Virus record (IMG/VR): IMGVR_UViG_3300020057_000005
Coordinates: 1 to 43,914 of that record
Origin: a virus
Strand: one strand, 5' to 3'
Length of the DNA stretch: 43,914 nt
Position 1 is the stretch's first letter. Each line of letters begins with the position of its first letter. The position numbers and the translations under genes are program-made. Below the pieces are notes generated by a model. It worked only from the letters and a program-made list of their open reading frames with translations. It was not told the DNA's origin and searched no databases. Positions 23,410 to 36,779 of this stretch are shown in pieces.

Positions 23410-23600
23410 CTATAGACGAGTACGAGGAAGTTATCTGCCGATGGCAACACCACTGGATGGACGTAAAGGGCACCGACGAGAGGGACCGGAGCGCGTATTT
23501 TAAGCGCGCGTCTGGCATAGATGCAAACATGCGCTACGGCCTGGCAAAAATGTTGGTTGAGGCCGAGAGGGACGCCATGATTACAGGAAAGGAGTTGTGA
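23406..23600 (+). CDS. Small early protein, function unknown
   Basis: A 64-residue protein starting by ATGA overlap. Acidic N-terminal helix ('MTIDEYEEVICRWQHHWM') and a charged helical C-terminus. Its end carries the AAAGGAG site for the methyltransferase and its stop overlaps the methyltransferase GTG. No family recognised. Confidence 0.5.
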   Translation: MTIDEYEEVICRWQHHWMDVKGTDERDRSAYFKRASGIDANMRYGLAKMLVEAERDAMITGKEL

Positions 23601-24520
23601 TATATGGCCTGGACTTATTTAGTGGTTACGGGGGACTCACTCTCGCCTTGGCACCATGGGTGCGACCGGTTGCCTATTGTGAACACGACCCCTACTGTCA
23701 GTCCCAACTTCTTTCGCGCATGGCAGAAGGAAGGTTGCCCGTCGCCCCCGTTTGGGACAATGTACAAGGTTTGCGGGGTTGGGAACTTCCCGGCTGGCCC
23801 GACATTATCTACGGAGGATTCCCCTGCCAGGATATCAGCGTTGCGGGAAATGGAGCAGGCCTGGACGGCGAGCGAAGCGGTCTTTTTAAAGAGATCTCGC
23901 GCTTGGCCCAAGAAACGCGACCACAGTTCTTATTCCTTGAGAACGTCCCTGCAATCAGAACACGCGGACTATCGACTATTGTCCGAGAACTGGCCCGCAT
24001 CGGGTATGACTCGCGATGGTGTACTTTATCCGCTGCTCAAGTTGGGGCTCCCCACAGAAGGGAGCGATGGTTCCTGCTCGCAAGCGCACGAGTTTCCAAC
24101 GCCTACTCGCCAAGATTCAAAGAGGGGGCACGCGCTGGAGATGGGTCGGACATCGCCGCCGCTTCGAACCATGGTACTGTTTCCAACGCCGACAGTGCAG
24201 GATTCGAACGGGCGAACGCATCACAACCAGAGAACGGGACCGCCGGTTCCAAGCCTGCTGGGTGTGGCGACCGGATGGCGGGCGAAAGGGTTGCTGCCGG
24301 ACCGTCCGGGGGCCATCGTGCGCGCGGGGAAGGCTACTGGCAGTCAATGTTTGCCCCCTTTGACCGCGAATGGTGGGGCGCTGAACCCGACGTGGGTCGA
24401 GTGGTTGATGGGTGTCCCTTTAGGGTGGACCGAATTAAGCAACTTGGGAACGGAGTGGTTCCAATCCAGGCGCGCAAGGCGTTCGCTCACCTAATTCAAT
24501 TCGCAAACGAACAGGGTTAA
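23597..24520 (+). CDS. C5 cytosine DNA methyltransferase
   Basis: A 307-residue DNA (cytosine-5) methyltransferase. Motif I 'LDLFSGYGG' (residues 5-13), motif IV 'GGFPCQDIS' with catalytic Cys 77, motif VI 'ENV' (115-117), motif VIII 'QVGAPHRRERWF' (about 147-158) and motif X 'QLGNGVVP' near the C-terminus are all intact. The target-recognition part (about 165-255) is loose and Ser/Ala/Gly-rich. It probably methylates phage DNA against host restriction. GTG 23597 is the only start that keeps motif I, although its ribosome site spacing is short. A second frame is open across almost the whole gene (see the next entry). Confidence 0.9.
   Translation: MIYGLDLFSGYGGLTLALAPWVRPVAYCEHDPYCQSQLLSRMAEGRLPVAPVWDNVQGLRGWELPGWPDIIYGGFPCQDISVAGNGAGLDGERSGLFKEISRLAQETRPQFLFLENVPAIRTRGLSTIVRELARIGYDSRWCTLSAAQVGAPHRRERWFLLASARVSNAYSPRFKEGARAGDGSDIAAASNHGTVSNADSAGFERANASQPENGTAGSKPAGCGDRMAGERVAAGPSGGHRARGEGYWQSMFAPFDREWWGAEPDVGRVVDGCPFRVDRIKQLGNGVVPIQARKAFAHLIQFANEQG
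23604..24494 (+). CDS. Overprinted ORF inside the methyltransferase gene
   Basis: A 296-codon +1-frame ORF lies inside the methyltransferase gene. Its ATG 23604 has GGAG at nine bases, better spaced than the methyltransferase GTG. From memory, its second half resembles proteins seen in phages: 'WPASGMTRDGVLYPL', two 'FPTPT' units and 'LNPTWVEWLMGVPLGWTEL'. The same DNA encodes methyltransferase motifs VIII and X in the other frame. The first half looks like random translation. It could be a true overprinted gene or only a frame kept open by the methyltransferase codon pattern. Confidence 0.35.
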   Translation: MAWTYLVVTGDSLSPWHHGCDRLPIVNTTPTVSPNFFRAWQKEGCPSPPFGTMYKVCGVGNFPAGPTLSTEDSPARISALREMEQAWTASEAVFLKRSRAWPKKRDHSSYSLRTSLQSEHADYRLLSENWPASGMTRDGVLYPLLKLGLPTEGSDGSCSQAHEFPTPTRQDSKRGHALEMGRTSPPLRTMVLFPTPTVQDSNGRTHHNQRTGPPVPSLLGVATGWRAKGLLPDRPGAIVRAGKATGSQCLPPLTANGGALNPTWVEWLMGVPLGWTELSNLGTEWFQSRRARRSLT

Positions 24521-35188: not shown

Positions 35189-35590
35189 ATGAAGTTCATC
35201 AGGAAAGGCGGCAGAGTCATCCCAATCAGCGATAAGAACGAAGACCCTAAGGGCAGCAAGTACATGGAGCAAACGTCTAAGCGGGACCGTGAAATCTCCA
35301 AGACGGGGGATAAAGTTACCGGCGTGTCCGCTGTCGTTACCGCAGGCCTGGCCGTATTGGCAAAGCGTAAAAAGTCCTTTGCCCTCGGTGCTGGGGCCGT
35401 TGCCTTGGGCATGTTTGCACTGTCCAGCGCCGGACATGCCAGTGCACGTTCGTCATCTGCTGACGCCCGGAAAGGGTATGCAAAAGACCTGAAGGCGGGG
35501 AGAAAGATTAAGCGTGGGAATGGCATTGGGAACGCGTCGGAAGTCGCTTATTCCGAGGCCGTTAGACTATCAACAAGAAAAAAGAAATGA
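35189..35590 (+). CDS. FIRxxGRxIPI-tagged virion protein 1 (two membrane helices)
   Basis: A 133-residue protein starting 'MKFIRKGGRVIPISDKN'. Residues about 44-58 and 62-82 are hydrophobic Gly/Ala-rich helices, the rest basic. The tag is shared with the next two genes, whose remaining sequence differs. Position between portal and minor head protein suggests a capsid-internal or portal-associated protein, possibly ejected with DNA and membrane active. This role is inference; no family is recognised. Confidence 0.6.
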   Translation: MKFIRKGGRVIPISDKNEDPKGSKYMEQTSKRDREISKTGDKVTGVSAVVTAGLAVLAKRKKSFALGAGAVALGMFALSSAGHASARSSSADARKGYAKDLKAGRKIKRGNGIGNASEVAYSEAVRLSTRKKK

Positions 35591-36204
35591 AGTTCATACG
35601 CCGGAATGGTCGAATCATCCCGATCCGGGACAAGAACGACCGGCACGACGTTAAGGTAGTGGCGGGTGCAGCAATAGCTGCCACCGGGGCCGCCAAGACG
35701 GGCGTGCAGGCGAAGACCTTCAGCGCGCGGTTCTATAGGGCCTTGGGCCTAAAGATTGTGACGGCCACCCCAGACGGGAAAACCGCACCGCGAGCATTTG
35801 CACTGGTCCGTAGAAACGCTGTGGGCGGCGATAACGTGTCATTCGCGGCCAGCTTTTCGTTGAAGAAGCGAACAGGCATCGGCAAGAAGCTGTTCGCCGC
35901 TGTCCAGTTCGACGCCGCCCGCAGGGGCGCGGATCACATCGCAGGCATGCCCATTTCATCGCAGGGGCTAGAGTTCATGCGCAAGCAGGGCGCAGTATTC
36001 CATGCAGGCGGGCGCGTAGTAGGCGGACTCCATGCCTCCAAGGCCATGAAGAAGGACCTGGTAGTGGTGGGCTTTGCACCGATCAACGTCAAGTCCCGAT
36101 CCTACATCGGAATGGGGCTCAAGAAGGCATGGAAGCCCAACCTGGCGCTCATTGCGATAGGCGCAGGACTTGCTGGCGTCGGCCTGCTTAGGAGAAAAGA
36201 ATGA
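35587..36204 (+). CDS. FIRxxGRxIPI-tagged protein 2 with GNAT-like domain
   Basis: A 205-residue protein starting 'MKFIRRNGRIIPIRDKN' with an ATGA overlap upstream. The middle (about 50-165) looks like a GNAT acetyltransferase fold: a strand 'PRAFALVRRNAVGGDNVSF', then 'RTGIGKKLFAAVQFDAARRG' in the place of the acetyl-CoA loop, then 'GLEFMRKQGAVF'. The C-terminus ends in a hydrophobic helix 'ALIAIGAGLAGVGLL' and 'RRKE'. It could modify capsid or host proteins, or have lost activity. Confidence 0.58.
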   Translation: MKFIRRNGRIIPIRDKNDRHDVKVVAGAAIAATGAAKTGVQAKTFSARFYRALGLKIVTATPDGKTAPRAFALVRRNAVGGDNVSFAASFSLKKRTGIGKKLFAAVQFDAARRGADHIAGMPISSQGLEFMRKQGAVFHAGGRVVGGLHASKAMKKDLVVVGFAPINVKSRSYIGMGLKKAWKPNLALIAIGAGLAGVGLLRRKE

Positions 36205-36779
36205 CCACCCGAAAAGACGTCACCTTCATCAGGGTCAATGGGCGTATCATACCCATCAGGCGCAAGGACGCAGGCATTGGCGCGGCCGAGGTGGCCGCTT
36301 CTGCGGCCGTTGCGGCGGGCTCGGGACATGCCGCGGCCAAAATGCTAAGCAAGTCCCACCGCTTTTTCAGATCATCATCTCGCTATCGGGCATTCTCCAA
36401 GATCAACACCTTGCCGGTCCACGCGGCCATGCGGACCGTGGCGGCCAAGCATTTTGTGAAGGGTCTGCGGTTCGCCGCGAGATCCAAGTGGACCATCCTG
36501 GCCGGAGTAGCTGTCTCGGCGGCACTTGCTGGCGCAGCATCGGATCGCCTGGCACCCAAGGCCGACGCTCACAAAAAGGCTTTATTCAGCATTGCGGCCC
36601 CTGTGATTGCCGTTCTGGCATTCAATCGCAGGACGGCCCTGGCCCACGTCGCCCTTCGTTCCCCGCTTAAGGATTCCATCAAAAACGCATTCGCGGCGTA
36701 TGCGGCCAGAGGTCGCACCAGGACCCGTGAGGCCGTTAATTTATTCCGGAAGAACAAACAACTGAAGCTGGATCTATAA
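36201..36779 (+). CDS. FIRxxGRxIPI-tagged protein 3 (Ala-rich membrane helices)
   Basis: A 192-residue protein with the tag 'TFIRVNGRIIPIRRKDAG' at residues 8-25 and ATGA overlap upstream. Ala/Gly-rich helices follow ('AAEVAASAAVAAG', 'WTILAGVAVSAALAGAAS', 'ALFSIAAPVIAVLAF'), so two or three could cross a membrane. Basic C-terminus. It overlaps the minor head gene by one base. Family not recognised; see the finding on the shared tag. Confidence 0.58.
   Translation: MTTRKDVTFIRVNGRIIPIRRKDAGIGAAEVAASAAVAAGSGHAAAKMLSKSHRFFRSSSRYRAFSKINTLPVHAAMRTVAAKHFVKGLRFAARSKWTILAGVAVSAALAGAASDRLAPKADAHKKALFSIAAPVIAVLAFNRRTALAHVALRSPLKDSIKNAFAAYAARGRTRTREAVNLFRKNKQLKLDL

Follow-up and report, generated by a model that had tools for sequence, protein, structure and literature searches.

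A terminal peptide tag on dissimilar proteins of one tailed-phage head module and its probable role in head targeting

In phage T4, short sequences at the protein ends direct the internal proteins and the ADP-ribosyltransferase (ART) Alt to the head, and these proteins are later ejected. For IPIII, the first ten residues are enough for incorporation into the head, and Alt undergoes processing at its two ends (PMC9026906). Phages and conjugative elements also encode polyvalent proteins, which are predicted to be packaged and injected, and in MuF-fused toxins and effectors the effector is joined to the MuF head protein (PMC5512222). Here we analysed a virus record from IMG/VR that is 43,914 bases long (the window, which denotes the whole stretch of DNA) in which three adjacent ORFs carry a shared tag, FxRxxGRxxPI, and followed this tag through virus sequences and cellular genomes. 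As with the T4 CTS (IPI-III and Alt), a short terminal sequence is found on several different proteins that are linked to head genes, an ART among them; here this is known from the genes. The tag appears to be unlike the T4 CTS in sequence, and it differs in being N-terminal, C-terminal or at both ends and in its predicted hairpin. In contrast to T4, the window has an SPP1-type portal and no clear gp21-like protease in its head module. By analogy, the tag of this clade likely works like a CTS, and we do not claim that the two are identical. Encapsulins offer another comparison, since their cargo-loading peptides are short terminal peptides that steer cargo into a shell of HK97 fold. The tag is likewise a short terminal peptide on cargo, whereas it belongs to a DNA-packaging virus and is found on many cargo types. 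The effector repertoire of the tagged proteins overlaps with that of polyvalent proteins, ART-PolyVal included (PF18760 in the related loci L122 and L083), but polyvalent proteins have many domains in one long polypeptide and the proteins described here are separate and small with the same tag (PMC5512222). They are mostly 60-350 aa long with at most one recognised domain each, and no tagged protein with two or more effector domains was found. Effectors are linked to a MuF head protein here as in MuF-fused toxins; unlike those, the tagged ORFs are separate genes, and most MuF-like ORFs in the clade have a length of 270-306 aa.

Tagged genes and head module of the window

An earlier note on this DNA had described three adjacent ORFs with a shared start of the FIRxxGRxIPI type, lying between the portal and a minor head protein, and had considered the tag to be conserved at the protein level. 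We found the ORFs at the same place with the same tags, the SPP1-type portal upstream and a MuF-like gene downstream (Table 1). The three proteins begin with MKFIRKGGRVIPI, MKFIRRNGRIIPI and MTTRKDVTFIRVNGRIIPI, respectively. FIRxxGR(V/I)IPI begins 2, 2 and 8 residues past the ATG, and the three ORFs overlap stop-to-start (ATGA). In pairwise comparison, 8 to 10 of the 11 tag residues are identical and only 3 or 4 of the 11 codons. Because the residues agree while most codons differ, conservation at the protein level is confirmed. When the whole window was scored with the position-specific matrix (PSSM) described below, only the three tagged ORFs scored.

Table 1 Features of the window. Columns Start and End denote positions in the window. 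Column Details denotes tag score, best match or other properties.
Feature	Start	End	Strand	Details
Terminase small subunit (TerS)	31331	31879	+	PF03592, 2.7e-19
Terminase large subunit (TerL)	31794	33452	+	phrog_38, 6.3e-76
DUF5659 protein	33454	33663	+	frequent in module
Portal protein (SPP1 gp6-like)	33688	35178	+	Pfam 4.6e-8
Accessory tagged protein 1 (133 aa)	35189	35590	+	N-terminal tag, one Ala/Gly-rich hydrophobic segment, basic
Tag 1, FIRKGGRVIPI	35195	35227	+	PSSM 45.4
Accessory tagged protein 2 (205 aa)	35587	36204	+	N-terminal tag, possibly GNAT-like middle, C-terminal hydrophobic stretch then RRK
Tag 2, FIRRNGRIIPI	35593	35625	+	PSSM 49.7
Core tagged protein (192 aa)	36201	36779	+	predicted beta-hairpin tag and long alpha-helices
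Tag 3, FIRVNGRIIPI	36225	36257	+	PSSM 46.0
MuF-like minor head protein	36779	37624	+	weak PHROG matches; conserved in 54 related loci
Probable scaffolding protein, acidic	37627	38337	+	named from position and weak match (phrog_206, 0.12)
Major capsid protein (MCP)	38347	39240	+	phrog_544, 1.7e-27

What follows the tags differs in part from the earlier description, in which membrane helices came after the tag, several of them in the third protein. A single clear hydrophobic stretch, rich in Ala and Gly, is present in each of the three proteins (Kyte-Doolittle maximum over 17 residues 1.72, 2.02 and 1.76, respectively); two or several helices are not clearly present, and the third protein was modelled as long helices. 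The GNAT-like domain assigned to accessory protein 2 is only suggestive: hhalign against tagged GNATs gave an E-value of 0.003 with a probability of 10%, and the AlphaFold model of the protein (pLDDT 34.6) was unusable. A protein scan of viral contigs returned no close homologs of this protein, and its single homolog in the related loci is L061:6890-7528. Homologs of accessory protein 1 (L020:10499-10975 and L093:10105-10611) lie downstream of the MCP and keep the tag; one cargo family is found at two different head loci with its tag retained.

The core protein belongs to a divergent family with about one member in each genome, whose gene usually directly precedes that of the MuF-like protein, and a search for this family gave 103 matches, redundant loci included. 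Nothing consistent was found in Pfam and PHROGs among 40 members. The tag of the core protein is predicted to be a beta-hairpin: AlphaFold2, run on 40 core sequences, placed its strands at residues 7-12 and 15-20, followed by long helices, with a mean pLDDT of 84.6. A fold search with the core-protein model gave no match at E 0.001. The three window proteins had been taken as cargo alike; judged by sequence comparison, the first two are variable accessories and the third is a conserved core component.

The MuF-like protein gave no Pfam match. The best of its weak PHROG matches (9.6e-5) was to a family labelled head maturation protease, and further labels were head morphogenesis and minor head protein. 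Pfam revealed no protease gene between TerS and MCP of the window. Sheath, baseplate and tape-measure matches indicate that the window virus has a contractile tail. Across the clade, a DUF5659 protein is often encoded next to terminase and portal. An ORF at positions 23597-24520 of the window reads like a cytosine-5 DNA methyltransferase (FSGYGGL, PCQD).

Extent, placement and linkage of the tag

In order to find further tags, we scanned IMG/VR with a degenerate DNA pattern for F-I-(R/S)-x-x-G-(R/S)-(I/V)-(I/V)-P-I, a search that takes no account of reading frame or of location within a gene. This main pattern was matched by 57 stretches, several having two to four matches, while the variants FV(R/S)..G(R/S) and FI(R/S)..GK gave 17 and 20 stretches, and a second spelling of the tag, FRRIxGRIVPI, gave 25. 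The PSSM was built from 118 tags and used with a cut-off of > 8. It selected 240 of 6859 ORFs of the related loci versus none of 6859 shuffled ORFs, a comparison in which the matrix was trained on the motif and the loci were chosen for it. A chance origin of the tag is excluded. Pooling all scans, we obtained 277 tagged ORFs with 287 tags; ORFs identical in the tag and in the residues just after it were counted once, and near relatives are included. A few low-scoring tags, such as that of L013:2397-2939 (minus strand), are probably false. The queries used returned no tagged proteins from a cultured-phage collection, the 22-aa tag query being perhaps lost to BLAST filtering, and the literature searched yielded only a piece of the motif, in two unrelated papers, and not the whole.

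All 287 tags are terminal, compared to about 40% expected under random placement. There are 238 N-terminal tags, of which 237 lie at most 35 residues from the start codon and one opens an ORF without a visible start codon. The remaining 49 are C-terminal and lie at most 25 residues from the stop, mostly 3 or 4; none is internal. Ten ORFs have two tags, one close to each end. Synonymous codons in the tags vary widely.

HMMs seeded with the window proteins were run on the first related loci, and the portal, MuF-like, scaffold and MCP genes were each found in 54-55 of these. The usual gene order is TerS, TerL, portal, tagged genes, MuF, scaffold, MCP, with additional tagged genes ahead of the portal or behind the MCP. 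The search of phages for the motif, which the earlier note had proposed, placed tagged genes between portal and MuF-like gene in 68 of the 74 loci that have both, filling 83% of that DNA; these 74 loci are mostly tag-selected, and some near-duplicates remain. An unbiased test of linkage comes from contigs that were fetched by portal only and were new to the tag scans. Among those with more than 2 kb downstream, 18 of 22 were tagged. A module gene is missing from the locus itself in 5 of 146 tagged loci; for three of these, the portal is present at other loci of the contig.

We then considered cellular genomes, where a single scan of 257 Gb gave 11 matching stretches. On the basis of reading frame, ten were judged to be chance matches (short ORFs, S replacing R, or an internal match in an unproven ORF). 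The eleventh, and the only convincing match, is the same phage head module with three tags on a 45-kb contig of a Chitinivibrionales bin. The motif scattered in unrelated cytoplasmic proteins, which the earlier note had named as evidence against its proposal, was looked for and not found. As far as the sequences indicate, nearly all tags are confined to one uncultivated tailed-phage clade that shares the head module of the window. A small clade with a related portal (L130, L154 and L155) has neither tagged genes nor the core protein between portal and MuF.

Cargo proteins and reading of the tag

Without their tags, the first 216 proteins fall into about 72 single-linkage clusters. Above Pfam cut-offs, ART-PolyVal was found in the two tagged proteins mentioned above (Pfam E-values 1.6e-17 and 2.6e-14), and four of the scanned tagged proteins have a GNAT domain (best 3.1e-7). 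Further cargo was assigned by conserved motif only: eight HExGH zincins, three kinase-like proteins (DxHxGN), two ATP-grasp-like proteins and additional ART-like proteins. PDB sequence searches with the kinase-like, ATP-grasp-like, zincin and PARP-like ART proteins gave no convincing match. Excluding the tag, the net charge of tagged proteins is +13.4 per 100 aa and is positive in 213 of 214; for other head genes it ranges from -4.2 to +3.2 per 100 aa. The cargo, which had been described as membrane-active proteins, is instead mainly very basic, with several enzymes.

A tag that is terminal, independent of its protein and tied to one assembly module has the pattern of an address label. Given its strictly terminal position, unrelated cargo, linkage to one head module and virtual absence from cellular genes, sequence comparison strongly supports a portable head-targeting tag on dissimilar cargo. 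The earlier proposal of such a tag thus stands on strong comparative evidence as far as portability is concerned, but not in its restriction to the N-terminus (49 C-terminal, 10 double). We consider it probable, at roughly 0.7, that FxRxxGRxxPI is a docking tag that loads cargo into the prohead, with basic cargo leaving together with DNA and enzymes reaching the new host. During prohead assembly, the hairpin would dock on an inner head component, which may be the scaffold, the portal, the MuF-like protein or the inner capsid face, and the tag-bearing protein would therefore be enclosed. Strongly basic cargo would lie within the packaged DNA and exit with it, so that ADP-ribosyltransferases, acetyltransferases and proteases would enter the new host as infection begins. 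The core protein would be a constant head component and the two accessory proteins of the window a swappable cargo set. To a more general claim we would give slightly better than even odds, namely that the beta-hairpin of this clade is an address tag, placed at either end, that loads exchangeable effector enzymes for delivery at infection, the head acting as a secretion device whose cargo shares one signal, and that the tag was exchanged on the core protein in two sister genomes.

Basic charge and head location are also compatible with plain structural proteins. The tag might dock minor structural or assembly proteins that remain attached to head or portal, rather than effectors for injection. 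This would suit the core protein, which is nearly universal in the clade, lies between the portal and MuF-like genes and was modelled as all-helical past the tag. The accessory cargo, however, varies greatly, and among its domains are those of ADP-ribosyltransferases and acetyltransferases, which have no structural role that we know of, and we regard this alternative as unlikely. It is less probable still that the tag works by binding DNA or membrane, anchoring its proteins to the packaged genome or to the membrane of the host, and has no receptor in the head. Both tag and cargo are basic and 37% of tagged proteins longer than 100 aa have a hydrophobic stretch, but charge-driven binding would not require the near-fixed F, G, P and I or the predicted hairpin, and the tag is linked to one head module. 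Common descent of all tagged proteins, with the tag as the best-kept part of a shared domain, is set aside as very improbable because tags are also C-terminal or double, never internal, and occur on unrelated domains of different enzyme families, and the single-linkage cluster of 91 sequences that favours it, many of them Ala/Gly-rich, may be joined by low-complexity segments.

As a probable head-targeting signal, the tag provides a sequence signature for proteins of metagenomic phages that are probably packaged in virions, and candidate early effectors may thus be found without cultivation. It also points to a compact peptide that could load proteins into a phage head when placed at either terminus, and to an independent counterpart of T4 head targeting, and it makes testable which head component reads the tag.

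In two sister genomes, which are nested among tagged genomes in the portal tree, the hairpin tag of the core protein is replaced by another motif, EGSRGGHII..T..G.P(I/V)YG (L115:4255-4971 and L123:4105-4686). The replacement motif EGSRGGHVIGHTKSGKPIY, for which the literature searched gave no match, recurs in long viral ORFs (L176-L199), where it usually lies inside the ORF and is at times repeated. At the C-terminus, several accessory cargo proteins have a hydrophobic stretch and then a short tail of charged residues (such as RRK or RKEDK), as seen in accessory protein 2 of the window and in L016:3627-4451, L036:2836-3579 and L051:2130-2879.
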